From NCBI GenBank assembly GCA_903838985.1, contig CAIMAO010000038.1:1-36738 (forward strand): a stretch of 36,738 nucleotides of DNA, given 5' to 3'. The DNA comes from an uncultured bacterium (lineage in GTDB: Bacteria > Patescibacteriota > Minisyncoccia > Phycocordibacterales > UBA9973). Under the pieces are notes generated by a model that saw nothing but the letters and a program-made list of their open reading frames with translations, was not told where the DNA came from and made no database searches. Of the stretch, positions 4,934-33,859 are shown piece by piece; positions within the stretch are counted from its first letter, which is position 1; each line of letters opens with the position of its first letter. The position numbers and the translations under genes were made by a program.

Positions 4934-5278
4934 ATGAGTAATATTTCTGAAAAAAGAATATGCCAGAACTGTAAAGGTGAATTCTTAATCGAGCCTGAAG
5001 ATTTTTCTTTTTATGAAAAAATAAAAGTTCCTCCACCTACATTTTGTCCAGAATGTAGAAGACAACGTAGAAACGCATGGAGAAATACTTTTTCTTTATA
5101 TTCTAGAAAATGTGATTTATGTAATAAATCGGTCGTTTCTATTTATTCTCTAGATTCTGGGATAATAATTTATTGTAATAAATGTTGGTGGAGTGATAAA
5201 TGGGACCCCAAAAATTATGGCGTAAATTATGATTTTTCTAAGCCATTTTTTTTTACAGCACAAAGAGCTCATGAATAA
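4934..5278 (+). CDS. Zinc-ribbon family protein, N-terminal part of a frameshifted gene
   Basis: 114 residues. The N-terminal family zinc module is intact: C10-x2-C13, 24 residues, C38-x2-C41, 18 residues, C60-x2-C63, 17 residues, C81-x2-C84. The frame then runs through a tract of nine T (5246-5254) and ends in an out-of-frame tail (TAQRAHE). Removing one T restores KPFFLQHKELMNKIP, which aligns with RPFFEQLSELFKNVP of the copy at 30.4 kb and joins this piece to the downstream frame as a 576-residue protein. It is either a real +1 frameshift (inactivation or slippage) or a homopolymer sequencing error. Confidence 0.85.
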   Translation: MSNISEKRICQNCKGEFLIEPEDFSFYEKIKVPPPTFCPECRRQRRNAWRNTFSLYSRKCDLCNKSVVSIYSLDSGIIIYCNKCWWSDKWDPKNYGVNYDFSKPFFFTAQRAHE

Positions 5279-6665
5279 AATTCCCCATATGGCTGTTGTA
5301 AATGATGATGGCATAGCTAGTGTTAATTGTGAATATACTCATGATACTTGGTTTTCTAAAAATTGTTATATGATGTTTTCTGGTTGGTATATTGAAAATA
5401 TTATGTATAGTTTTTTTGTTACTGCTGGTAAAAACATTATTGATACTATCATTAATATGGCTCGATCAGAATATCTTTATGAATGTATAAATTGTTCACA
5501 TGGTTATAATGTAAAATATTCTGAATATGCTGGAGCATGTATTGATTCTCAATTTATGTTTGACTGTAGAGATTGTTCGGATTGTTTTATGTGTTCTGGA
5601 CTCAGAAATAAAAAATACTTTTTTAAAAATAAACAATATACAAAAGAAGATTATGAAAAAATTTTGGGTGAATACAAACTAGATACTTTCTCTGGAGTAG
5701 AAAAAGCAAGAGAAGAATTTAAAGAATTTATTTTAAATTATTCTCGTAGATATGCATGGTTTAAACAAAATAAAGATTGTTCAGGTGATGTTATCTCATA
5801 TAGTAAAAATACTAAAAAATGTTTTATCTCAAAAAGATGTGAGCATTGTAAATATAGTGAATATCTAACTAGTGATAAAGACTGTTATGACCTTGTTATG
5901 TCTGGAGAGCTTTCCGAAAGCTATGAGGGGGTAGTGGTTGATCATTCTCAATTAAATCTTTTTGGACTTTTTTCAGTAAAAAGTCAGGATATTAAATATA
6001 CTCAGCATTGTCATTCTTCTAAATATTTATTTGGTTGTGTTGGTTTGAGAAACGCACAATATTGTATCTTTAATAAACAATATACAAAAGAAGAGTATGA
6101 AGAATTAATTCCAAAAATAATTAAACATATGAATGATATGCCATATATAGACAAAAATGGGAATAAATATCGTTTTGGGGAATTTTATCCAATTGAATTT
6201 TCACCTTTTGGTTATAATGAAACTCTTGCCATAGAAGATATCGCATTAACAAAAGATGAAATTATTGACAAAGGATTTAAATGGCAAGGAAACTTACAAA
6301 GAACTACTGGTAAAGAAACATTGAAACCGGAAAATATTCCTGACTCTATAAATGATGTGTCAGATTCTATTCTAGAAGAAATACTTGTTTGTATAAATTG
6401 TAAAAGAAATTATAAAATTGTTCCAAATGAACTTATTCTTTATAGAAAAATGAAAATACCAATTCCACGGAGATGTTTCCATTGTAGACATAAAAATAGA
6501 ATAAGGAAGATGAATCCTTTTAAGCTTTGGCATAGGCAATGTATGTGTGATAAAGAAAACCATGAACACAGTGAAAGATGTAATATTGAATTCGAAACTT
6601 CTTATTCATCTGATAGACCTGAAATTATCTATTGTGAAAAGTGTTATCAGCAGGAAATATATTAG
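5229..6665 (+). CDS. Zinc-ribbon family protein, remainder of the frameshifted gene
   Basis: Second frame of the gene beginning at 4934; family homology begins at the T-tract (about 5246), and the first internal ATG is at 5271. It holds the duplicated Cys/Tyr/Asn-rich core: the first half ends GLRNKKYFFKNKQYTKEDYE and the second GLRNAQYCIFNKQYTKEEYE. The C-terminal zinc module follows (C-x2-C-x24-C-x2-C-x18-C, then a knuckle widened by a His-containing insert, then C-x17-C-x2-C) and ends QQEIY. The function is not recognised. The widened knuckle (CDKENHEHSERC) is peculiar to this copy. It ends 32 bases before the next gene. Confidence 0.85.
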   Translation: MIFLSHFFLQHKELMNKIPHMAVVNDDGIASVNCEYTHDTWFSKNCYMMFSGWYIENIMYSFFVTAGKNIIDTIINMARSEYLYECINCSHGYNVKYSEYAGACIDSQFMFDCRDCSDCFMCSGLRNKKYFFKNKQYTKEDYEKILGEYKLDTFSGVEKAREEFKEFILNYSRRYAWFKQNKDCSGDVISYSKNTKKCFISKRCEHCKYSEYLTSDKDCYDLVMSGELSESYEGVVVDHSQLNLFGLFSVKSQDIKYTQHCHSSKYLFGCVGLRNAQYCIFNKQYTKEEYEELIPKIIKHMNDMPYIDKNGNKYRFGEFYPIEFSPFGYNETLAIEDIALTKDEIIDKGFKWQGNLQRTTGKETLKPENIPDSINDVSDSILEEILVCINCKRNYKIVPNELILYRKMKIPIPRRCFHCRHKNRIRKMNPFKLWHRQCMCDKENHEHSERCNIEFETSYSSDRPEIIYCEKCYQQEIY

Positions 6666-11784: not shown

Positions 11785-13455
11785 ATGAATAATAGTGAAA
11801 AAAGAATATGTCAGAATTGTAAAAAAGATTTTGTGATAGAACAAGATGATTTTTCTTTTTATGAAAAAATAAAAGTTCCTCCACCTACATTTTGCCCAGA
11901 ATGCAGACAACAGAGAAGAATGGCATGGAGAAATGATTATGATTTTTATCATAGAAAATGTGAATTTTGTGAGGAAAGAATATTATCTATTTACTCAGAA
12001 GATAAGCCTTTTAAAATATTATGTCCAAAATGCTGGTGGGGAGATGGTTGGGATCCAAAAAAATTTTTACAAGAATTTAATTTTGGAGAATCATTTTTTT
12101 CTCAGTTTCGACGGTTTATGGAAAAAGTGCCAGTATTGGGGGTTTTAAATGATAATAATATAGCAAGTATAAATTGTGATTATACGAATTATTTTGCACT
12201 AGGAAAAAATTGCTATATGGTTATAAATTCTTGGAAAGTTGAAAATTGTATGTATTCTGTTTGTTTAGTCGATGTCAAAGATTCAATTGATTGTGCAGTT
12301 TTACTCAACGGTGGAGAAAATCTTTATCATGCTATTTATGTAGAAAATTCTTCTCGTTCAAAATATGTATATAATTCCGCATTACTTTTAGATTGTTTTT
12401 TCTGTTTTGATTGTAGGGGGTGTACTAATTGTTTTATGTGTTTTGGATTAAGAAACAAAAGTTATTGTTTTAAAAATAAACAATATAGCAAAAATGAATA
12501 TAAGAAAATTTTAGAAAAATATAAATTAAATTCTTGGACTGGAATAGAAAAAGCAAAAAACGAGTTTAAGAAATTTTCACTTAGTTTGCCTCATAAATAT
12601 GCAAATATAAATAATTGTGTGAATTGTACAGGAGAATATCTTGTTAATTCAAAAAATTCAAAACATTGTTACATTACAGTGCGTGCTGAAAATTCTAAAT
12701 ATTTTGAACGTGGAGATACTATAAAAGATAGTTATGATTGTTTAAGTGGAGGAGAACAGGAACTTTGTTATGAATCTATTAATCCTGATAATTCTTACAA
12801 AACTTTATTTACAACTTATTGTCACAGGTGTACTGATGTTCTTTATAGTGATAGTTGTCAATCATCAGAAAATCTTTTTGGATGTGTAGGACTTAAAAAA
12901 GCTAAATATTGTATTTTTAATAAGCAATATTCTAAAGAAGAATATTTTTCTATGAAAGAAAGAATTATTGAACATATGAAAAAAACATGTGAATGGGGTG
13001 AATTTTTTTCAATGAAATATTCTCCATTTGCATATAATGAATCTGTAGCGCAAGATGAGTTTCCTCTCTTAAAAGAAGAAGTTATAAAAAGAGGATTTTT
13101 TTGGCAAGAATCAATTACAAAAACAAAAGGGAAAGAGACGTTAAAAGAAATTCCAGACAATATAGAAGATATTGATGATTCTATCTTAAATGAGATATTG
13201 ATATGCCAGTCGTGTGACAGAAATTATAAAATTGTTAAAAACGAATTAAATTTTTATAAAAAGAATTTAATTCCAATACCGCGTGAATGTTTTTTTTGCA
13301 GATTAAAAGGACTTTATAAAGAAAGAGGCCCTGTAAAGCTTTGGTATAGACAATGTATGAAAGAAGGATGTACTAATAAATTTGAAACTTCTTATGCCCC
13401 TGATAGGCCAGAGATTATTTATTGTGAAAAATGTTATCAGCAAGAGGTTTATTGA
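11785..13455 (+). CDS. Zinc-ribbon family protein, intact copy
   Basis: 556 residues from the ATG at 11785; earlier in-frame starts overlap the GNAT gene. N-terminal zinc module C9/C12, C37/C40, C59/C62, C80/C83 and C-terminal module C474/C477, C502/C505, C524/C529, C547/C550 share the same spacings (24, 18, 17). Between them lie two related core units rich in Cys, Tyr, Asn and Ser, each ending in GL(R/K)xxxYCxxNKQYSK(N/E)EY. It ends QQEVY followed by TGA. Short motifs such as SKYVYNS and KNSKHCY recur about every 20 residues and could form a beta-helix; this is speculation. No signal peptide or membrane segment. The function is not known to me. Related copies in automated annotations carry unreliable names. 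Confidence 0.85.
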   Translation: MNNSEKRICQNCKKDFVIEQDDFSFYEKIKVPPPTFCPECRQQRRMAWRNDYDFYHRKCEFCEERILSIYSEDKPFKILCPKCWWGDGWDPKKFLQEFNFGESFFSQFRRFMEKVPVLGVLNDNNIASINCDYTNYFALGKNCYMVINSWKVENCMYSVCLVDVKDSIDCAVLLNGGENLYHAIYVENSSRSKYVYNSALLLDCFFCFDCRGCTNCFMCFGLRNKSYCFKNKQYSKNEYKKILEKYKLNSWTGIEKAKNEFKKFSLSLPHKYANINNCVNCTGEYLVNSKNSKHCYITVRAENSKYFERGDTIKDSYDCLSGGEQELCYESINPDNSYKTLFTTYCHRCTDVLYSDSCQSSENLFGCVGLKKAKYCIFNKQYSKEEYFSMKERIIEHMKKTCEWGEFFSMKYSPFAYNESVAQDEFPLLKEEVIKRGFFWQESITKTKGKETLKEIPDNIEDIDDSILNEILICQSCDRNYKIVKNELNFYKKNLIPIPRECFFCRLKGLYKERGPVKLWYRQCMKEGCTNKFETSYAPDRPEIIYCEKCYQQEVY

Positions 13456-19400: not shown

Positions 19401-19429
19401 ATTATAACACTTAATATTGAGTATTAGCA
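19401..19429 (-). promoter_or_regulatory. Promoter of the AI-2E family gene
   Basis: On the minus strand TTGCTA (19429-19424), a 17-bp spacer and TATAAT (19406-19401) preceded by TG give a near-consensus extended promoter. The start would be near 19394, 3 nt before the ATG. The -35 box overlaps the outer arm of the hairpin repeat at 19426-19518. Confidence 0.7.
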
Positions 19430-19518
19430 AAAACTACCTAAAAATTTTCATCCCTGCGCCCTTCTCGGATTACCGAGTGGGACCCTCGGGAAGTGAAAAT
19501 TTTTAGGTAGTTTTTGCT
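19426..19518. repeat. Palindromic element, core family C
   Basis: Perfect 25-bp arms at 19426-19450 and 19494-19518 enclose a 43-base GC-rich core. The core contains a nested hairpin (CCC-TT-CTCGG-atta-CCGAG-T-GGG, 19459-19481) and a TCCC/GGGA pair near its ends. Organisation matches the A and B elements, but the core differs. It lies between divergent genes, with its left arm touching the -35 box of the AI-2E-family promoter. Confidence 0.85.
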
Positions 19519-20535: not shown

Positions 20536-21939
20536 TTAAAATTCGTCCAATTCCTCACTTATTTTTGTTGCAGAAAATTCACTAAGGCTACTTTTTTCAA
20601 GATTCAAGAAAGTTGTAGTTTTTTCGTCAAAGAACAAATCAACTTTTCCAGTAGGACCATTTCTGTGTTTTTCTATTAATATCTCAGCGATATTTGTCTT
20701 TTCAGATTCATCTTTACCTTTATCTTCTCGGTGAATAAACATTACCACATCAGCGTCCTGTTCGATAGAACCTGAATCACGAAGATCAGAAAGTCTTGGT
20801 CTACCTCCTCGAGATTCTACCGCACGGTTAAGCTGAGAGAGTGCAAGCACAGGCACATCGAGTTCTTTTGCTAAACTTTTCAGAGATCTTGATATTTCTG
20901 TGACTTGGTTGACCATAGAATCATAATTTTTAGAAGTGGTCATAAGTTGCAAGTAGTCTACGACGATAAGGTCCAATCCTTTTTCTGCTTTTAATCTACG
21001 GGAAAGAGCTTTCATTTTTACGATAGAGTTGCCTGGTGTGTCATCTATAAATATTTTTGCTTTGGCGAGTTTATCTAATGAATCACGAAGTTGAGAAAAA
21101 TCTCTGTCGGATGAAAGATGTCCAGTTCGTAAATTCCATGCATTCACACGTGATTGAGCTGAAAGCATTCTATCTACGAGTTGTTGAGAAGACATTTCCA
21201 AAGAGAAAATTAATATAGATTTATTGTGGGTAACAGCAGACATGCGGGCTATGTCTAGAGCAAGTGTAGTTTTACCCATAGAAGGTCTTGCTGCTAAAAT
21301 AATTAAGTCAGATTTTTGCAAACCAGAAAGTGTGCCATCTAATTCTTTGAAACCAGTAGGTAAGCCACGAAGTGCATCTTTATGTTCGTGCAATTTTTCA
21401 AGACGCTCCCATGCTTCAGGTAATGCATCTTTTAAGTTTACAAACTTTTGACTTTTTGGAGATGAAATTACACTAAAGATTTTCTTTTCTGCCATATCTA
21501 GTATGTCATCCATATGATCATCACTTTCTTCAAAGGCAAGTTCAGAGACATAGTCTGCAGCATCTATTAAACTTCTTAACACATATTTTTTTTGAACGAT
21601 ATCAGCATAATGTTTTACGTTTGTGGAAGAGGGAACGACATTTACTATTTCTGCCAAATATTGATTACCCCCAACTCTTTCTAATAATTTTTGTTCGCCT
21701 AGTTTAGTAGAAAGCGAAAGCATGTCTATCGGTTCATTTTTCAAAAATAAATCAAGCATTGCTTGGAAAATTAATTTGTGTTTTTCAACATAAAAAGAAT
21801 CTTGGTTTATTATTGCTTCCACTTCTTGGATAGCATCCTTACGAAGCATTATAGAACCGAGCACTGCTTGCTCTGATGGAATACTTTGAGGAGGAATGCG
21901 TATATTATTTTTATTTGTTTTTGTCGTCATTAGAAACAT
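20536..21939 (-). CDS. dnaB: Replicative DNA helicase DnaB
   Basis: 467 residues. The N-terminal primase-binding domain starts IPPQSIPSEQAVLGSIMLRK. The RecA-like motor has Walker A AARPSMGKTTLALDIA near residue 220, the VVDYLQLM Walker B, SQLNRAVESR, and the RLSDLRDSGSIEQDADVV segment with the arginine finger region. No intein. ATGs at 21939 and 21930 are both possible: a TATGTT or TAAAAT box just upstream would give a transcript starting at one or the other. recR is co-directional and 3 bases downstream. Divergent from trpS across a B-type hairpin element. Confidence 0.97.
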   Translation of the reverse strand: MFLMTTKTNKNNIRIPPQSIPSEQAVLGSIMLRKDAIQEVEAIINQDSFYVEKHKLIFQAMLDLFLKNEPIDMLSLSTKLGEQKLLERVGGNQYLAEIVNVVPSSTNVKHYADIVQKKYVLRSLIDAADYVSELAFEESDDHMDDILDMAEKKIFSVISSPKSQKFVNLKDALPEAWERLEKLHEHKDALRGLPTGFKELDGTLSGLQKSDLIILAARPSMGKTTLALDIARMSAVTHNKSILIFSLEMSSQQLVDRMLSAQSRVNAWNLRTGHLSSDRDFSQLRDSLDKLAKAKIFIDDTPGNSIVKMKALSRRLKAEKGLDLIVVDYLQLMTTSKNYDSMVNQVTEISRSLKSLAKELDVPVLALSQLNRAVESRGGRPRLSDLRDSGSIEQDADVVMFIHREDKGKDESEKTNIAEILIEKHRNGPTGKVDLFFDEKTTTFLNLEKSSLSEFSATKISEELDEF

Positions 21940-22010: not shown

Positions 22011-22099
22011 GCAGATTCTGCAAAGAATTTTTGAGTCTTCGCCCTCGGAGTCATAAAGACAGGGGACCCACGACTCTTAAAATTCTTTGCAGAATCTGC
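22011..22099. repeat. Palindromic element, core family B, copy 1
   Basis: Perfect 21-bp arms at 22011-22031 and 22079-22099 enclose a GC-rich core of about 47 bases. Within the core GAGTC (22033-22037) pairs with GACTC (22072-22076), CCCT (22042-22045) with AGGG (22061-22064) and GTC (22050-22052) with GAC (22058-22060). The same core, with three or four base changes, occurs at 29728-29813 between unrelated arms. It lies between divergent dnaB and trpS, ending about 10 bases before the trpS -10 region. Confidence 0.85.
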
Positions 22100-22121: not shown

Positions 22122-23078
22122 ATGTCTAAAAAAGTATTATTATCAGGGGTAAAGCCAACAGGTGCACCACATATAGGTAATTATTTTGGTGCAATGAAAC
22201 AATTTGTAGAACTTCAAAATGATTATGATGGTTATGTTTTTATTGCTGATTATCACGCTTTGAATTTTATTCAAAATAAGGAAGAAATGCATAAAAATAT
22301 TATTAATATTTTACTTGATTATTTAGCTATTGGCCTCGATCCTAAAAAAATAACAATATTCAAACAATCTGATATTTTAGAACACACAGAACTTGCTTGG
22401 ATTTTTGATACTTTTACAACAATGCCATACCTTATGCGTGCTCATGCGTATAAAGATGCGCTCGGCAAAAATAAAGAAATATCTGTTGGCACATTCAACT
22501 ATCCGATGCTTATGGCAGCTGATATTTTACTTTACGATGTAGATGTAGTTCCTGTAGGACAAGATCAAAAACAACATGTAGAATATGCGAGAGATACAGC
22601 AGAGAAATTTAATTATATTTTTGGTGAAACTTTTAAACTACCAGAACCAATGATTATGAAAGATGTTGCAGTTGTTCCAGGGATAGATGGGAGAAAAATG
22701 TCAAAAAGTTATAACAATCACATTCCACTTTTTGCATCACATGAGGAGGTTAAAAAATGTGTGATGGGTATAGTCACAGACTCTAGTGGTGGTATTCCTA
22801 AAAATGTCTTTGCTATACATAGTTTGTTGAGACCAGAAAAAGAACTTTTACCAATATATGAAAGCAAGGCGGGTAAATATAAAGAATTAAAAGAATTATT
22901 AATTGAAGATTTAGAAAAATTTATTGCACCACTTCGAGAAAGAAGAAAAGAATTTGAGAAAGATATTCCCAAAGCTTTAAAAATCCTTGAAGAGGGAAGC
23001 AAAAAGGCAAAAATTGTAGCTTCAAAAAAAATGCAAGAAGTAAAAGAAAAGATAGGGGTAAATATCTATGAAAAATAA
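22122..23078 (+). CDS. trpS: Tryptophan--tRNA ligase
   Basis: 318 residues, class I. SGVKPTGAPHIGNYFGAM has the HIGH-type motif at residues 17-20. TrpRS-specific elements follow: the DYHAL loop, NYPMLMAADILLYDVDVVPV and GQDQKQHVEYARD. The KMSKS loop (GRKMSKSYNN) is near residue 191. It charges tRNA-Trp. Its 3' end overlaps the trpR-like gene by 11 bases (ATGAAAAATAA), coupling the synthetase to a presumed Trp-sensing regulator. Confidence 0.97.
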   Translation: MSKKVLLSGVKPTGAPHIGNYFGAMKQFVELQNDYDGYVFIADYHALNFIQNKEEMHKNIINILLDYLAIGLDPKKITIFKQSDILEHTELAWIFDTFTTMPYLMRAHAYKDALGKNKEISVGTFNYPMLMAADILLYDVDVVPVGQDQKQHVEYARDTAEKFNYIFGETFKLPEPMIMKDVAVVPGIDGRKMSKSYNNHIPLFASHEEVKKCVMGIVTDSSGGIPKNVFAIHSLLRPEKELLPIYESKAGKYKELKELLIEDLEKFIAPLRERRKEFEKDIPKALKILEEGSKKAKIVASKKMQEVKEKIGVNIYEK

Positions 23079-25786: not shown

Positions 25787-27166
25787 ATGAAAATAAATTT
25801 TAAAAAACCAACAAATGAAAAAGAAATTCTTTTTGTATCTGTTGACTCAAAAAATAAAGATGAAGTTGTAAAAGAAAATGGAGTAAAAACACTTTACCTA
25901 AAAAGTGACGAAGAAATGAACTTAAGAAAGTTATTTTTACTTGTCCGTAAAATGATTCAGATGGCTAAGGGTGTAAAAGCAGAGAAAGTAAGTTTTGATT
26001 TTAATGACTTTAAATTTAAAAATATTAATTTAACAGATATAGAGCTTGGAGAAATTATTGGAACTCAACTTGATTTTGCAAATTATGAATTTGTTGAATA
26101 CAAAACACCTACAAAAGAAGGTTTTCCTTTTGTAAAAGAAATTTATATTTCAGGGGTAAACAGTGAAATAGAAAAAGCAATTTTAAAAGGAAATGTTATT
26201 GCTGATGAGGTGAATAAAACTAGAACACTTTCAAATATGCCGGGTGGGGATATGACTCCAGAAATCTTATCAAAAAAAGCAAAAGAAGCTGTGAAAGGTT
26301 TGCCAGTGAAAGTTGTAGTATTGGGTGAAAAAGAAATGCAAAAACAGAATATGCAAGCTATTCTTTCTGTCGGACGTGGATCAGAAGAAGAATCTAAATT
26401 CATTATTTTAGAATATTTTGGTGGTAATAAGAAAGAAAAACCAATAGTATTAGTCGGTAAAGGTGTGACCTTTGACACAGGTGGAATAAATTTAAAACCC
26501 TCAAATAGTCTTCTTGGTATGAATATGGATATGTCCGGAGGTGCGGCTGTAATACACACTATTGCTCTCGTTGCAAAAATGAAATTAAAAAAGAATGTGA
26601 TTGGTTTGATACCTTCTGTCGAAAATATGGCATCTGGAAAAAGTTATAGACCTGGAGACGTAATACGTTCAATGTCGGGAAAAACTATTGAAGTTTTAAA
26701 TACTGATGCAGAAGGAAGAGTGATACTTGCAGATGCATTAACATATTCTCAAAAATATAAACCAGAAATTGTGATAGATATAGCGACTCTTACAGGAGCT
26801 GCTTGTGTATCCCTGGGAGAAAGAGCTTCAGCTATTTTTACAACAGATGATGATTTATCAAAAAAAATGGAAAAAATTGCAGAGGAAACGGGGGATTATA
26901 TTTGGCGTTTACCTTTGTGGGAAGAATATGAAAATGAAATAAAAGGATCACTTGGAGATTGGACAAATATTCAAAATAAAAATTCTGGTTATGGTGGAGC
27001 TATTTATGCGGCTGTATTTTTATACCAGTTTATAAAAGGCCATAAATGGGCACATTTAGACATAGCCCCTCGTATGACAGCGATGCAGGGGGAAAATCTA
27101 GCTAGTGGAGCTTTAGGTACTTCTGTGAGGCTTCTATATAAGTTTATTGAAGAATACAAGGCATAA
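25787..27166 (+). CDS. pepA: Leucyl aminopeptidase (M17 family)
   Basis: 459 residues. The N-terminal ~150 residues form the variable domain. The catalytic domain has VGKGVTFDTGGINLKPS, MNMDMSGGAAVIHT, and the M17 signature NTDAEGRVILADAL, which supply the two-metal site and catalytic Lys/Arg. The end (APRMTAMQGENLASGALGTSVR) is also typical. It releases N-terminal residues from peptides as a hexamer. Start ATG at 25787, 17 bases after aspS and without a Shine-Dalgarno, so it probably reads through from the T-box transcript. A core-A hairpin element follows. Confidence 0.96.
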   Translation: MKINFKKPTNEKEILFVSVDSKNKDEVVKENGVKTLYLKSDEEMNLRKLFLLVRKMIQMAKGVKAEKVSFDFNDFKFKNINLTDIELGEIIGTQLDFANYEFVEYKTPTKEGFPFVKEIYISGVNSEIEKAILKGNVIADEVNKTRTLSNMPGGDMTPEILSKKAKEAVKGLPVKVVVLGEKEMQKQNMQAILSVGRGSEEESKFIILEYFGGNKKEKPIVLVGKGVTFDTGGINLKPSNSLLGMNMDMSGGAAVIHTIALVAKMKLKKNVIGLIPSVENMASGKSYRPGDVIRSMSGKTIEVLNTDAEGRVILADALTYSQKYKPEIVIDIATLTGAACVSLGERASAIFTTDDDLSKKMEKIAEETGDYIWRLPLWEEYENEIKGSLGDWTNIQNKNSGYGGAIYAAVFLYQFIKGHKWAHLDIAPRMTAMQGENLASGALGTSVRLLYKFIEEYKA

Positions 27167-27172
27167 AAGTGA

Positions 27173-27283
27173 AAAAATCCCAAATAAAGTTTTTGCCGGT
27201 ACGGATTTTTTGAAGCTTAAAAAATCCTGAAATTCTCGCGCCGTCGCGCTCGAAACCCCTTAAAAACTTTATTTGGGATTTTT
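27173..27283. repeat. Palindromic element, core family A, copy 2
   Basis: Perfect 22-bp arms (27173-27194 and 27262-27283) enclose a 67-base core that differs from copy 1 at 2154-2220 by one base. Both copies share GTTTTT/AAAAAC next to the core; beyond that the arms are unrelated (TCCCAAATAAA here, AAAAGCGAT there), yet each is perfectly self-complementary. As in copy 1, it lies between two convergent genes (pepA and the MFS gene) and could terminate both. Confidence 0.85.
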
Positions 27284-27287
27284 GTGT

Positions 27288-28514
27288 TTACAAAACCTCT
27301 ACGGGTTCTACTTCGATGTGTTCGTGTTCTTTGGGTTTTATATTTTTATATGTATTAAATATAAATATAAAAGAAATAGATAAAATTAATCCTGATAAAA
27401 CATAAGGCAAACTTGCACCTATGCCATAAACTAGTCCACCCAAAAGTGGTCCGATGATCATTGAAAGTGACATAAGTGAAGCTAAAATCCCCATCATTTC
27501 TCCTTGCTCTTTTTTATCTGAGAAACTAATTATTTGACTATTCATAACTACGCGCATTGTTGAATGTCCAAAAGCAGTGACGATTAATCCGAAAAAGAAA
27601 GCAAACTTATATGGTAATGCCATTACAAAATATCCTAAAGCAAAAGGTATGAGCATATAAACCATCAAGAAAGATTCTTCAAAATATTTGAGCCAAACTT
27701 TACGAATAAAGAATGCTTGATTGAGAGAAATTATTATTCCAACGAATGCCATAAGTAAACCAGAGGCAACGACTGTCCAAGAAAATATTTTTGCAATATA
27801 TAGGGCAAATATTGATTGATTGAGCGAGATAGCTATTCCAAAAAACAACCAAGCCAAATAAAGTGGGAGAATATTTTTATTTTTCCAAGCTTTGATTATA
27901 GGTGCGAATGGATTTAAAGAAATTTCTTTTGTATTTCTGTCATGATGCGTTTCTGGTAAAAAGAAATAAGCCAAAATTGTATTTATTGTGGCTAATACTC
28001 CCACAACGATGAATGGCAATTTCATACTAAAAGTAGAAAGTACTCCGCCTACTAAAGGTCCAATGATAAAAGCTATTCCAAAAATTGCACCGATTAATCC
28101 TAAATTTTTTGTTTGTTCTTTTCTATCTTTTGATATATCTATTAAATAATTTTGAGCAGTTGAAATATTTCCTGCAGCTGAACCGTCTATTATTCTTCCC
28201 AAGAAAAGTCCGAAAAGTGTTTTTGAAAAAGCAAAAATTATCCAGCCAATCGCTGAAGATGCGAGACTCACGAGTAATACTGGACGTCTGCCTTTTCTGT
28301 CAGAAATCATTCCTAATATAGGTGCACTGAAAAATGCAAAAAGAGAGAAAACAGCAAAAAGTAATGTAACTACAATGTCTGGGACGTTAAAAGATTCTAC
28401 ATAATATGGAAGTATAGGTACGATAAGGCCTATACCTAAAACATCTAAAAATACTGTAGATAATATTATAATTTTTGGTGAGAATTTTGATTTATTTTCA
28501 ATATTTTCCTGCAT
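27288..28514 (-). CDS. MFS drug exporter, TetA-like
   Basis: 408 residues with 12 predicted membrane helices. DVLGIGLIVPILPYYV opens helix 1 as in TetA/DHA1 exporters, and the loop between helices 2 and 3 has motif A, GMISDRKGRRPVLL. Motif C-like Gly/Pro-rich sequence (GAIFGIAFIIGPLVGG) is in helix 5. Proton-coupled efflux is expected; the drug or metabolite is unknown. On the minus strand TGCTAAATT just upstream could serve as an extended -10 giving a near-leaderless message. Divergent from tspO by 61 bases. Confidence 0.9.
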   Translation of the reverse strand: MQENIENKSKFSPKIIILSTVFLDVLGIGLIVPILPYYVESFNVPDIVVTLLFAVFSLFAFFSAPILGMISDRKGRRPVLLVSLASSAIGWIIFAFSKTLFGLFLGRIIDGSAAGNISTAQNYLIDISKDRKEQTKNLGLIGAIFGIAFIIGPLVGGVLSTFSMKLPFIVVGVLATINTILAYFFLPETHHDRNTKEISLNPFAPIIKAWKNKNILPLYLAWLFFGIAISLNQSIFALYIAKIFSWTVVASGLLMAFVGIIISLNQAFFIRKVWLKYFEESFLMVYMLIPFALGYFVMALPYKFAFFFGLIVTAFGHSTMRVVMNSQIISFSDKKEQGEMMGILASLMSLSMIIGPLLGGLVYGIGASLPYVLSGLILSISFIFIFNTYKNIKPKEHEHIEVEPVEVL

Positions 28515-29013: not shown

Positions 29014-29772
29014 GTGGAAACTGAAGCGTATAAGATAAAAACTCAAAATTTTGAAGGGCCATTTCATTTATTACTTTCTTTAATTGAAGAAAGGAAGTTT
29101 TTTATTAATGATTTGTCTTTGGCACAAGTGACAGAAGATTATTTGAAGTATGTTAATACTTTAGATGAATTAAATACACATGAAATTTCTAATTTTATAG
29201 TTATTGCTGCTACTCTCATTCTAATAAAATCAAAATCCCTTTTACCTAATTTAAATCTTACTTCAGAAGAAGAGAGCGATATCCATAATTTAGAAGATAG
29301 GTTAAAACTATACGAAATTTATACAAAATTAGCTGAAAACATTAAAAATGTTTTTGGAGAGAAAATTATTTTTGCTCCACTTGAAAGAAAAAATGAAGTT
29401 TTAATCTTTTTGCCTGATGATCAGATTACAAAAGAGAATATGATGACTTTTGCACGTGATGCGTTAGGTAGAATTCCAAAAAAAGTTTTATTGCCTGAAG
29501 TGGAAGTTAAAAAAGTAATGAGCATAGAAGAAATGATAGATAAACTAACAGAAAGAATACAAGATTCTTTCAAAATGAGTTTTAAAGATTTTTCTGGGGT
29601 TGCAAAGACAAAAGAAGAAAAAGTGCTTGTAATTGTTAGTTTTCTTGCTATGCTAGAACTTGTAAGGCAAGGTATACTTCATGTAGTGCAAGATAATATT
29701 TTTGAAGATATTTTAATAGAAAAATATGATAAAAATTCAAAAATTTTTGAGCCTTCGCCCTCGGAGTCATAA
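29014..29772 (+). CDS. scpA: Segregation and condensation protein ScpA
   Basis: 252 residues from a GTG at 29014. The N-terminal SMC-binding region has the usual FEGPFHLLLSLIEERKFFIND, followed by the SNFIVIAATLILIKSKSLLP helix; the C-terminal winged helix includes VIVSFLAMLELVRQGILHVVQ. It is the kleisin subunit bridging SMC heads, with ScpB. The last ~15 residues (ending KIFEPSPSES) and the stop codon are encoded by a core-B palindromic element, so the native tail has been replaced. scpB starts 53 bases downstream. Confidence 0.94.
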   Translation: METEAYKIKTQNFEGPFHLLLSLIEERKFFINDLSLAQVTEDYLKYVNTLDELNTHEISNFIVIAATLILIKSKSLLPNLNLTSEEESDIHNLEDRLKLYEIYTKLAENIKNVFGEKIIFAPLERKNEVLIFLPDDQITKENMMTFARDALGRIPKKVLLPEVEVKKVMSIEEMIDKLTERIQDSFKMSFKDFSGVAKTKEEKVLVIVSFLAMLELVRQGILHVVQDNIFEDILIEKYDKNSKIFEPSPSES

Positions 29773-29813
29773 GGACAGGGAACCCACGACTCTTAAAATT
29801 TTTAATTTTTATC
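29728..29813. repeat. Palindromic element, core family B, copy 2, inside the scpA 3' end
   Basis: Left arm 29728-29747 (20 nt) and right arm 29795-29813 (19 nt) pair fully except for one bulged C. The core (GCCCTCGGAGTCATAA, then GACAGGG and ACCCACGACTCTTAAAA) matches copy 1 at 22011-22099 apart from a few substitutions, while the arms are unrelated. It supplies the last codons and the TAA of scpA and fills most of the scpA-scpB gap. Confidence 0.85.
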
Positions 29814-29825
29814 AATTTAAATAAT

Positions 29826-30386
29826 ATGAACATAGAACAAAAAATAGAAGCAATACTTTTCTTTAAAGGAGAGCCAGTATCAAGGAAAAAACTTGGAGAA
29901 GTCTTGGGAGTTGGTCAATTAGAAATAAACGAAGGGTTAGATAAATTAAAAGAAAATTTAAAAGAAAGAGGAATAGTTTTACAAGAAAAAGATGATGAAG
30001 TTTTACTCGGGACTTCGCCACAATTTTCTGATTTGATTGAGAATTTACAAAAGGAAGAATTAAATAAAGAACTTTCAAAAGCAAGCTTAGAAACACTGTC
30101 TATTATTCTCTATAAAAATGGCGTAGGCAGGTCTTTAATTGATTACATAAGAGGTGTTAATTCTAGCTTCACTTTAAGAGCACTTTCTATAAGAGGTTTG
30201 ATTGAAAAAAGTATTGATCCTGAAGACAGTAGACGCTATATTTATAAGCCTACTTTTGAATTGTTATCTTTTATGGGAGTTAAGTCTGTGGAAGAATTAC
30301 CTGATTATGAATCTGTAAATAGTTCTATTTCATCTGCAGCAGAAAATTTTGCTGAAGAATTAAATAACGAACAAAGTTCTAATTAA
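29826..30386 (+). CDS. scpB: Segregation and condensation protein ScpB
   Basis: 186 residues with two winged-helix domains. It begins IEQKIEAILFFKGEPVSRKKL, and the second domain has LETLSIILYKNGVGRSLIDYIRGVNSSFTLRALSIRGLIEK, the typical ScpB block. The C-terminus is short and Ser/Glu/Asn-rich. It works with ScpA and SMC in chromosome compaction. No Shine-Dalgarno. The next zinc-ribbon gene starts 11 bases after the stop. Confidence 0.94.
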   Translation: MNIEQKIEAILFFKGEPVSRKKLGEVLGVGQLEINEGLDKLKENLKERGIVLQEKDDEVLLGTSPQFSDLIENLQKEELNKELSKASLETLSIILYKNGVGRSLIDYIRGVNSSFTLRALSIRGLIEKSIDPEDSRRYIYKPTFELLSFMGVKSVEELPDYESVNSSISSAAENFAEELNNEQSSN

Positions 30387-30397
30387 TTATTCTTATT

Positions 30398-32134
30398 ATG
30401 GAAGCAGAAAAGAAAATACATTCGATAAACTCAGTATCTACGAACTGCCAGAATTGCAAAGGTGAATTTTTGATTGAGCCAGATGATTTTTCTTTTTATA
30501 AAAAAATGAAAGTGCCAGCACCTACATGGTGTCCTGAATGTAGAATAATAAGAAGGATGTTGTATAGAAACGAAAGATCTTTATACAAACAAAATTGTGA
30601 TCTTTGTAATAAACCTACCATTTCAATGTATGATCCTAGAGATAAGTATGTTGTATACTGCAATGATTGTTATGCTTCTGATAAATGGGATCCAATAAAT
30701 TATGGAGTAGATTACGATTTTTCAAGACCATTTTTTGAGCAATTAAGTGAATTATTTAAAAATGTTCCACGAAGGGCTTTGTATAAAGATTATGCTGTAA
30801 ATAGTGAATATACAAATCAATCAGTATATATGAAAAATTGCTATCTTTGTTTTGGTGGACATCATTATGAAGATAGTGCTTATTGTGCTCAAAATTTTTA
30901 TTTAAAAAATTGTTTAGACACTGATTTCTCTCATAAAAGTGAATTCTGTTTTGAATCGCTTCATTTAAAAAATTGTTTTAGAGTTAGATATGGATTTTAT
31001 TCTGAAAGTTGTATGGATTCTTGGTTGATTTATGGTTGTCGTAATTGCTCAAATTGTGTTGGTTGTACAAATTTGATAAATAAAAATTTCTGTATTTTTA
31101 ATCAACAATATACCAAAGAAGAATATGAAAAAAAAGTTGAAGAAATGGGCCTTTCTAATCCAGAAAATTTAGAAAAAATTAAATTAGAATTTTTTAAAGA
31201 TTCTTTAAAATTTCCAAGAAAATATGCGAATATAAAAAATATTGTAAATTCTACGGGAGACGACATAGAACAAGTAAGGAATTGTAAATATGTTTTTTCT
31301 GTGACTGAAGGTGAAAATATTAGATATTCTTTTTTTTCTCCAACAGGAGCAAAAGATTGTTTTGATATAGATCATGCTGGGCTCGGTCTTACTGAGGCTT
31401 ATGAATTACATAGCGGTTTTGGTGACAACAGAGTTTTATTTTCCAATAGAATCTATGATTCTCACAATGTTGAATATTCAGATGATTGTTATAACGATGA
31501 ATATCTTTTTGCTTGCGCCGGATTACGTAAAAAATCATACTGTATTTTTAACAAGGAATATAGCAAAGAAGAATACGGCATACTCGTAGAAAAAATTAAA
31601 AAGCACATGGATGATATGCCTTATGTAGATAAGAAAGATAGAGTATTTAAATACGGAGAATTTTTCCCAATAGAAGTTATTCCTTTTAGTTATAATGATT
31701 CTGTTATTTGTGAATATTTTCCTTTGACTAAAGAAGAAATTATAGAAAGAGGTTATAAATATGTCGAACCAGAAATAAAAAATTATAAACCAACCATTTT
31801 GCCGCATCAGTTGCCCTCTGTTGAAGATGTAGATGAAAATATTTTGCAGGAGGTTATTCAATGTGAGCATATGGGTCATTGTAATGATAGATGCACTTCA
31901 GCTTTTAGAATAATTCAAAATGAATTAAATATTTGTAAAATGTTAAAAGTTCCGTTACCAAAACTTTGTCCAAATTGTCGTCACATGTCTAGAATTAGTT
32001 TATTAAATGCACCTAGGCTTTATGATAGAAAATGTATGAAAGAAGGCTGTCAAAATAAATTTGAAACAAGCTATGCTCCAGATAGACCTGAAATTATTTA
32101 TTGTGAAAAGTGTTATCAGCAAGAAGTTTACTAG
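30398..32134 (+). CDS. Zinc-ribbon family protein, first of a tandem pair
   Basis: 578 residues. N-terminal module C17/C20, C45/C48, C67/C70, C88/C91. The C-terminal module has the same spacing but a widened first knuckle (CEHMGHCNDRC, residues 489-499), then C524/C527, C546/C551, C569/C572, ending QQEVY. The central two-unit core includes NCYLCFGGHHYEDSAYC, a CRNCSNCVGCTNL cysteine cluster, and NFCIFNQQYTKEEY / SYCIFNKEYSKEEY closing each unit. It directly follows scpB and is followed after 21 bases by a second family member. No catalytic motif, signal peptide or membrane segment; the function is unknown. Metal binding follows from the cysteine pattern. Confidence 0.87.
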   Translation: MEAEKKIHSINSVSTNCQNCKGEFLIEPDDFSFYKKMKVPAPTWCPECRIIRRMLYRNERSLYKQNCDLCNKPTISMYDPRDKYVVYCNDCYASDKWDPINYGVDYDFSRPFFEQLSELFKNVPRRALYKDYAVNSEYTNQSVYMKNCYLCFGGHHYEDSAYCAQNFYLKNCLDTDFSHKSEFCFESLHLKNCFRVRYGFYSESCMDSWLIYGCRNCSNCVGCTNLINKNFCIFNQQYTKEEYEKKVEEMGLSNPENLEKIKLEFFKDSLKFPRKYANIKNIVNSTGDDIEQVRNCKYVFSVTEGENIRYSFFSPTGAKDCFDIDHAGLGLTEAYELHSGFGDNRVLFSNRIYDSHNVEYSDDCYNDEYLFACAGLRKKSYCIFNKEYSKEEYGILVEKIKKHMDDMPYVDKKDRVFKYGEFFPIEVIPFSYNDSVICEYFPLTKEEIIERGYKYVEPEIKNYKPTILPHQLPSVEDVDENILQEVIQCEHMGHCNDRCTSAFRIIQNELNICKMLKVPLPKLCPNCRHMSRISLLNAPRLYDRKCMKEGCQNKFETSYAPDRPEIIYCEKCYQQEVY

Positions 32135-32140
32135 CCCTTG

Positions 32141-32160
32141 GATAGTATATTAGATATGAA
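32141..32160 (+). repeat. 20-bp direct repeat at a gene junction, copy 1
   Basis: GATAGTATATTAGATATGAA begins after the stop of the first tandem zinc-ribbon gene and runs into the start codon of the next gene. An identical 20-mer occurs at 33866-33885 after the second. The bases between stop and repeat also align (TAGCCCTTG versus TAGTCTTTA). It contains TATATT, a possible -10 box. Confidence 0.8.
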
Positions 32161-33859
32161 AAGTGAAATAAAAAATTGTCAAAACTGTAAAAAAGATTTT
32201 GTTATAGAGCCAGATGATTTTTCTTTTTACGAAAAAATAAAAGTACCAGCACCGACATGGTGTCCAGATTGTCGTTTTCAAAGGAGATGTGTTTTTAGAA
32301 ACGAGAGAAAACTTTTTAGAAACATAGACGCAATTTCTAAAAAATCCATAATCTCTCTTTTTCCTCCTGAGGCAAATTTTCCTATTTATGAGGACAGTTA
32401 TTGGTGGAGTGACAAATGGGATCCTTGTGAATATGGCATAGATTTTGATAGATCAAGACCATTTCTTTCTCAACTTTATGAATTAAGCAAAAAAGTTCCA
32501 CATCCTCGTTCTGATGCTACTAGAATGGTAAGAAGTGAATATTCTGCAAATGCAGCAGATCTTAAAAATTGTTATCTAATATTTAATTCAACTTCAACCG
32601 AGGATTCTGCTTATGGTAATGCAGTAGATTACTGTAAAAATACATTTGATAACTCACATATTCAATCTTCAGAAAAATGTTACGAATCCTTTTGGTTAAA
32701 TAAATGTTATGATACTTATTTTTCTTCTCAGTGTGAAGAATGTGTTTCAGTATGGTTTTGTAAAAATTGTTATGGATGTATGAATTGTTTTGGTTGTGTC
32801 AATTTAGTAAATAAGTCATATTATTTTTTTAATGAGCCGATGTCTAAAGAAAATTATTTAAATAAAATAAAATTGGTAAATTTATTTAGATGGACGGATC
32901 TTGAAAAAATAAAAAATGAAGTTAAAGATTTTTGGATTAATTTTCCTAATAGATATTTACAAGGAATAAAGAATCATTTGTGTAGTGGAGAATATATTTC
33001 ACATTCAAAAAATGTCCGTGATAGTTATTTAATAAGAGAAGGACAAGATTTAAAATATGTCCAATATGGTTTAGTTCCTAGTTTGAGGGATTGTATGGAT
33101 GTTTCTGTTAGTGGTAATAATAGTGAACTTATTTATGAAAGTGTAACATCAGGGTGGAATTCTTCACAAATAAAATTTTGTTATGAATGTTGGGATGGTG
33201 GGACAGATTTTGAATATAGTGTATTTTGTGGAAATAAAGCAAACCATGTTTTTGGTAGTGTGGCTATAAAAAGTGGTAATTACATTATTTTAAATAAAAA
33301 ATATTCAAAAGAAGAATTTATAAAACTTAGAGATGAAATTCGTGAACATATGGATAAAATGCCATATATAGATTCTCAAGATAGAGTTTATAAATATGGG
33401 GAATTTCTTCCTCCAGAATTTTCTCCATTTGCTTATAATGATACTATTGCCCCAGAACATTTTAGTCTTTCAAAAGAGGAAATTATTAAATATGGTGGTA
33501 ATTGGTATGAAATACCTAAGGCTGAATATTCAATAACTGTAAAAGCAGAAGATATTCCAAATGATATTCATGATATTCATGATAATTTTTTAGATGAAAT
33601 TATTTCATGTTTGAAATGTGGTCATGCGTATAAAATAATAATTTCTGAATTACAATTTTTAAAACAAAATAATATATCAGTACCAAGGTATTGTGTAAAT
33701 TGTCGTCACAATGAACGTATTTCTCAAAGAAATAAAAGTAAACTATATCATCGTTCATGTATGAAAGAAGGATGTCAAAATGAATTTGAAACTTCCTATG
33801 CGCCAGATAGACCTGAAATTATATATTGCGAGAAGTGTTATCAACAAGAAGTTTACTAG
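32156..33859 (+). CDS. Zinc-ribbon family protein with a degenerate N-terminal knuckle
   Basis: 567 residues from the ATG at 32156; a TTG at 32138 is possible, but the equivalent position after this gene reads TTA while the ATG is conserved. The first knuckle pair is intact (C8/C11, C36/C39), but all four ligands of the second are lost: by spacing they fall at D58, S61, E79 and Y82. The C-terminal module is complete and ends QQEVY. The core keeps the two-unit layout, with a CEECVSVWFCKNCYGCMNC cluster; the second unit ends YIILNKKYSKEEF. It arose in tandem with the upstream gene, judged by the shared 20-bp junction repeat. Partial loss of metal sites suggests divergence of function. Confidence 0.87.
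   Translation: MKSEIKNCQNCKKDFVIEPDDFSFYEKIKVPAPTWCPDCRFQRRCVFRNERKLFRNIDAISKKSIISLFPPEANFPIYEDSYWWSDKWDPCEYGIDFDRSRPFLSQLYELSKKVPHPRSDATRMVRSEYSANAADLKNCYLIFNSTSTEDSAYGNAVDYCKNTFDNSHIQSSEKCYESFWLNKCYDTYFSSQCEECVSVWFCKNCYGCMNCFGCVNLVNKSYYFFNEPMSKENYLNKIKLVNLFRWTDLEKIKNEVKDFWINFPNRYLQGIKNHLCSGEYISHSKNVRDSYLIREGQDLKYVQYGLVPSLRDCMDVSVSGNNSELIYESVTSGWNSSQIKFCYECWDGGTDFEYSVFCGNKANHVFGSVAIKSGNYIILNKKYSKEEFIKLRDEIREHMDKMPYIDSQDRVYKYGEFLPPEFSPFAYNDTIAPEHFSLSKEEIIKYGGNWYEIPKAEYSITVKAEDIPNDIHDIHDNFLDEIISCLKCGHAYKIIISELQFLKQNNISVPRYCVNCRHNERISQRNKSKLYHRSCMKEGCQNEFETSYAPDRPEIIYCEKCYQQEVY

Follow-up and report, generated by a model that had tools for sequence, protein, structure and literature searches.

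A dispersed hairpin element supplies the end of scpA and recurs in frame within conserved genes of one Nomurabacteria genus

The element in which scpA ends

The scpA gene at positions 29014–29772 (plus strand) closes inside a long palindrome, which raises the question of whether this palindrome belongs to the gene, terminates its transcript or came from elsewhere. We examined the whole stretch of 36,738 nucleotides (the window), which is one contig (C38) of a 751-kb genome that is 97% complete (G000). A repeat search of the window paired 29739–29803 with 22023–22087 over 65 nt at 92% identity. Both are cores of a dispersed hairpin element, core-B, in which two arms, complementary to each other in any one copy but different from copy to copy, enclose a conserved core of 63–65 bp. 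In the scpA copy the core, delimited by the repeat and by comparison of the family and including the inner AAAATTT/AAATTTT ends, is flanked by a left outer arm (GATAAAAATTC, 29728–29738) that is the reverse complement of the right outer arm (29804–29813) save for one unpaired C. The other copy, also read on the plus strand, lies between the divergent genes dnaB (20536–21939, minus strand; NCBIfam TIGR00665 above cut-off) and trpS (22122–23078, plus strand; NCBIfam TIGR00233 above cut-off), and its outer arms, 22011–22022 and 22088–22099, are exact reverse complements. The preliminary description of this DNA had placed two copies with nearly identical cores and unrelated arms at 22011–22099 and 29728–29813, and that is where they are. 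A DNA search of G000 itself found core-B at 10 places with E-values from 7e-40 to 2e-10, which excludes a chance resemblance, and 3 of the 10 are identical across the full 65 nt.

Core-B is not the only hairpin in the window. Positions 2122–2226 and 27163–27267 belong to a second family (105 nt, 88% identical, with different outer arms), the core of which carries GTACGGATTTTTTGAAGC and GAAACCCC; this family also occurs in the scpA-scpB gap of two relatives, G095 and G100. A third family, at 19426–19518, consists of a GC-rich core of 43 nt enclosed by perfectly matching arms of 25 bp.

ScpA is 252 residues long and matches Pfam SMC_ScpA over residues 23–235. Residues 239–252 (DKNSKIFEPSPSES) and the stop codon TAA (29770–29772) are element sequence. 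The earlier claim that the element supplies the terminal residues and the stop codon of scpA therefore stands, with 14 residues in place of the "about 15" given. It had also been argued that the element is not simply a terminator. In agreement with this, no U tract lies 3' of either copy on the plus strand (no T run was found after 22099 or 29813; a terminator scan is blind to loops longer than 8 nt), and scpB (29826–30386, plus strand; Pfam SMC_ScpB) begins 12 nt past the right arm. An intrinsic terminator was ruled out because there is no U tract and scpB follows immediately.

The C-terminus of ScpA and the scpA-scpB gap were compared at 30 loci of the genus. Of the relatives, G027 alone (...ENSKIFEPSPSES) shares the tail of G000, and it carries the element too; no relative had this tail without a sign of insertion, as would be expected if the element had been inserted at the end of scpA. 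Core-B is present at the scpA-scpB junction in six relatives (G027, G032, G024, G096, G078 and, with an inverted core, G079). G000, G027 and G024 have the stop codon of scpA within the core; in G096, G078 and G079 it falls in the left arm, and in G032 it lies upstream. Stretches in G003 (after its own stop codon), G070 (tail ISETAS), G100 (tail KISEPN) and G026 are read as remnants of the element; that the stretch in G095 is a remnant is doubtful. Other palindromes occupy the junction in G060, G082 and G004, and also in G095 and G100 beside the remnant, and some relatives, for example G083, G028 and G102, have a short plain gap. Loci without traces of the element end in different, unrelated tails. 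Because the loci of relatives hold the element, its remnants, other palindromes or plain gaps, the tail of ScpA, a part of the protein not covered by the Pfam domain, appears from these alignments to have been remodelled by insertion and decay of the element. The earlier reading, that of an inserted element that ends scpA and is no terminator, is thus supported and largely holds.

Copies in the genus and sites without them

Matches to core-B were found in 17 of the 60 genomes searched, all among the 36 genomes from within the genus (17/36) and none among the 24 from other families of the order (0/24). The highest number in one relative was 15 places. After removal of duplicates from all listed copies, 93 distinct copies from the genus remained, with a consensus of about AAAATTTYTGAGCCTTCGCCCTCGGAGNCATAAGGACAGGGRACCCACGACTCTTAAAATTTT. 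Beyond the core, copies have only the inner AAAATTT/AAATTTT in common. Nonetheless, each copy pairs with its own flanks, with a median of 14 pairs beyond the core: a stem score of at least 8 was reached in 74 of the 93 copies, versus 1.2% of 3,682 mismatched flank pairings. The core itself also folds. Its alignment gave an alifold energy of -23.6, compared with -14.6 (sd 3.1) for column shuffles, the lowest of 60 shuffles being -22.6, and sub-variants exist in which the inner stem is altered on both sides (GAG/CTC, GCG/CGC, GAAAC/GTTTC).

The core pattern was found in 63 GTDB contigs, 58 of which are labelled Nomurabacteria and none Rickettsia. The remaining five are labelled Parcubacteria group (one), uncultured bacterium (one), Burkholderiales (two) and Methylococcaceae (one). 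The two Burkholderiales-labelled contigs carry loci L253 and L290 (JAMPXW010000002.1 and JAMPXW010000004.1), and for one of them the label is taken to be wrong. Viral contigs gave no match to the exact core pattern, a search that would miss diverged copies, and a phage origin of core-B was rejected on that result alone.

Empty sites were revealed by comparison with 12 relatives at the sites of the two other G000 copies that share the identical core with the scpA copy (L002 and L003), and by comparison with relatives at dnaB-trpS. At L002 the G000 sequence is 95 nt long and that of G102 7, G070 1, G100 5 and G083 24 nt; at L003 it is 96 nt, against 5 nt in G027 and 11 nt in G100; and at dnaB-trpS it is 97 nt, against 9 nt in both G006 and G081, 3 in G083, 25 in G027 and 24 in G032. 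Several relatives had other palindromes or a missing anchor at these sites and allowed no verdict. The inserted unit is arm, core and arm, about 90–100 nt, without counterpart at the same place in these relatives. At all three sites both arms are missing too from the empty sites, and therefore the unit arrived with its arms and its target was not a palindrome. This bears on the idea that a bare core inserts into palindromes already standing, such as terminator stems, which then become its arms. Such a process would explain site-specific arms of different sequence around identical cores; however, the relatives' empty sites contain no palindrome and leave no room for one, and at three in-gene sites the net insertion is longer than the core, so that we regard it as very improbable. 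No target duplication was seen by eye at the empty sites, although the relatives are so diverged (~70–86% DNA identity) that neither the exact joints nor such a duplication can be resolved. In G100 and G082 a right-arm-like stretch stands alone at dnaB-trpS. It may be either a remnant or the state before insertion, and the latter would count against an insertion of the whole unit as a selfish repeat.

Copies in frame within conserved genes

Core-B is not confined to intergenic gaps. Twenty-four of the 93 copies lie in frame and on the sense strand within ORFs, with at least 50 codons on each side. The host genes include MnmA (tRNA_Me_trans), the CCA-adding enzyme (PolyA_pol and HD), RecJ, UvrC (twice), LigA, LeuRS, a class II tRNA synthetase and a methyltransferase.

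Three of these sites, in MnmA, the CCA-adding enzyme and the methyltransferase, were followed through 108 gene copies. Each search contributed its 30 best matches, to which 20 selected MnmA stretches were added, so that the loci are not a random sample of the 80 species; two further methyltransferase loci fell outside the 108, where the search patterns were not matched in one frame (one of these, L142, carries a frameshift and has no insert). An insert, defined as a sequence at least 24 nt longer than the shortest, was present in 83 of the 108 copies (MnmA 41/50, CCA-adding enzyme 28/30, methyltransferase 14/28). Every one of the 108 lengths is divisible by three, and the 83 inserts are free of stop codons. 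The best arm score was at least 12 in 59 of the 83 inserts and in none of 83 shuffles. By their cores the inserts form 43 clusters, of which 30 are single and the largest is core-B (16); six core clusters are shared by two or by all three genes. On this clustering, core-B is one of many unrelated hairpin families in the genus, often in frame in essential genes. The mnmA gene of G000 itself (L161, on contig C4) has an in-frame hairpin from a family other than core-B, and the core of the hairpin at 19426–19518 of the window resembles the core of that insert.

Inserts of about 70–100 nt within conserved domains of essential enzymes could suggest an intervening sequence that is removed before or during translation, by splicing or by bypassing as in Magnusiomyces mitochondria. 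If an insert were removed, nothing would keep it from holding stop codons or shifting the frame, and the complete set of in-frame, stop-free inserts, which also sets core-B apart from the translational bypassing element (byp), leaves this explanation hardly credible. We have no protein data; by sequence, an in-gene element should be translated as about 24–30 extra residues. Models of excision from MnmA could not be separated: of 36 cases, models in which one arm was kept were best in 14 and 12, and the model in which both arms were kept in 10. These models do not discriminate in favor of a selfish repeat either.

Arms, cores and the spread of copies

The arms of a copy change together. Among six orthologous copies in the CCA-adding enzyme gene, 5 of the 19 outer-helix pairs were changed on both sides, giving 9 double-changed cells versus 0–2 in slid controls, and similar paired drift of the arms was seen at dnaB-trpS (G000, G095 and G070) and at scpA (G078 and G079). 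The core behaves differently from the codons around it. Its third codon positions are 88, 76 and 92% identical between orthologues, compared with 55, 49 and 50% in the flanking codons of the same genes, and the core exceeded the flank in all 31 pairs. The core therefore does not evolve as codons do, and is either selected or homogenised. In gene-anchored comparisons, the only ones from which flips were taken, G079 (at scpA and in the CCA-adding enzyme gene) and G095 and G070 (at dnaB-trpS) hold the core in the opposite orientation between its arms. As far as alignments can tell, this speaks for cores being exchanged or flipped while the arms stay in place.

Core-B is also oriented. Between co-directional genes 40 copies are sense and 8 antisense, and within ORFs 25 are sense and 2 antisense, with p about 3e-6 for spacers and 6e-6 for ORFs if copies are independent; they are not fully so, related ones being counted repeatedly. 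Two of these ORFs are probably spurious, that of the antisense copy L079, which lies next to a tRNA-like stretch, and that of the sense copy L019. A passenger that acts purely at the DNA level would not be expected to show such a bias, and a core more conserved than neutrality predicts is also compatible with functional selection. Both would be predicted if the sense hairpin with its conserved core were kept for a role in the mRNA, as a binding site, a processing or stability signal or an attenuator, and the paired changes in the core stem and the alifold result point the same way. Nonetheless, the genes and spacers in which it occurs are unrelated and have no function in common, many relatives lack the element at the same sites, unrelated families occupy those sites and the core is inverted in several orthologues. 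Furthermore, Rfam 15 gave no core-B match at the gathering score: one match to mir-577, on the bare palindrome, scored 21 bits against a cut-off of 100, and matches elsewhere in the loci were at chance level. We consider a functional RNA element unlikely, though not to be dismissed.

No transposase could be linked to core-B. The hairpin shape suggests a REP/RAYT-like or other transposase-driven repeat mobilised by a Y1 (HUH) transposase or a reverse transcriptase, and such enzymes are common in the genus (Y1_Tnp in 55 and RVT_1 in 43 of 80 genomes). However, G000, which is 97% complete, has no match to Y1_Tnp, unlike REP/RAYT systems, and none to RVT_1, yet it holds 10 core-B places, and neither enzyme is associated with the element: Y1 occurs in 14/17 genomes with core-B versus 14/19 without, and RVT_1 in 9/17 versus 11/19. 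This makes a transposase-driven repeat quite improbable, although a mover enzyme that resides in a coexisting cell or has since been lost is not excluded.

Dispersed hairpin repeats of this kind are known elsewhere. Rickettsia palindromic elements (RPE) are dispersed hairpin repeats of ~100–150 bp, of several families, that lie in spacers and in frame in conserved protein genes (PMC2229807, PMC10969869), and for one of them translation within guanylate kinase has been shown (PMC2229807, PMC10969869, PMC2635572). Core-B resembles them in its dispersed copies with a long stem-loop (93 distinct copies) and in its presence both in intergenic gaps and in frame inside conserved protein genes. It differs in its host, which is not a member of the Rickettsiales and belongs to another phylum (Patescibacteria); in its arms, which are site-specific and stay complementary through paired changes, whereas those of RPE are reported to lose identity over time (PMC6649704); and in the flips of its core and the many families at one site. 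Without a sequence comparison with RPE, we regard them as the closest working analogue. The protein-coding palindromic repeats of Wolbachia would, judged by the title of a paper cited in PMC2229807, represent the same idea in another reduced genome, again without a sequence comparison. In coding palindromes of Nematomorpha mitochondria, arms within genes are kept complementary, as in core-B, and template switching was proposed (PMC6649704); there, in contrast, the two arms code for native, conserved protein without any inserted shared core, whereas in core-B a foreign core has been inserted together with its arms. Bacterial MITEs (ERIC, RUP, Correia) are likewise small, non-autonomous and hairpin-forming and sometimes make in-frame fusions, but their copies share terminal inverted repeats, whereas the outer arms of core-B vary by copy (only 1.2% of mismatched flanks reach a score of 8); no target duplication is evident among the diverged relatives, and Y1_Tnp and RVT_1 offer no parent. 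Searches restricted to listings of open-access papers turned up no description of an element of this kind, whether for Patescibacteria, CPR, Nomurabacteria or Parcubacteria.

We thus propose, with a probability of roughly 0.6, that core-B is a short non-autonomous hairpin repeat that spread through one Nomurabacteria genus, RPE-like in function, mainly selfish and tolerated, and neither a terminator nor a host regulator. What the comparisons show is that the unit settles in operon gaps and also inside genes, provided that it is a multiple of three in length and a frame is open; at scpA it has taken over the end of the gene. We infer that single-stranded DNA at the replication fork folds into the hairpin, that template switching between the arms may keep them complementary, and that exchange or flipping through the common AAAATTT/AAATTTT ends may keep the cores uniform. 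Our confidence that template switching at the fork underlies both arm matching and core exchange is moderate, no step having been shown. The mover of new copies, if it is an enzyme, remains unidentified, and the template-switch mechanism is an inference.

A broader picture can be entertained only tentatively: an ecosystem of unrelated hairpin cassettes with a shared insertion logic, in which different families repeatedly use a few tolerant loops of essential enzymes, arms are renewed or corrected to match, cores are exchanged or flipped in standing arms, and mobility by core exchange arises from template switching at the replication fork without a dedicated transposase. In-frame selfish palindromes, our preferred reading of core-B, have so far been a Rickettsiales curiosity and would now extend to a phylogenetically remote, ultra-reduced lineage. 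Their density in the three conserved genes opens dozens of species to the study of element insertion, arm matching and the accommodation of foreign loops by proteins. For annotation, protein tails and loops in Nomurabacteria genomes may be element and not protein.

The window holds other content that we record here. Positions 4940–6665, 11788–13455 and 30398–33859 are arrays of diverged paralogous ORFs with repeated cysteine-rich segments, ~60–82% alike (families D1–D7), and 27288–28514 (minus strand) encodes an MFS transporter resembling a tetracycline efflux pump, with a best match below the curated cut-off.
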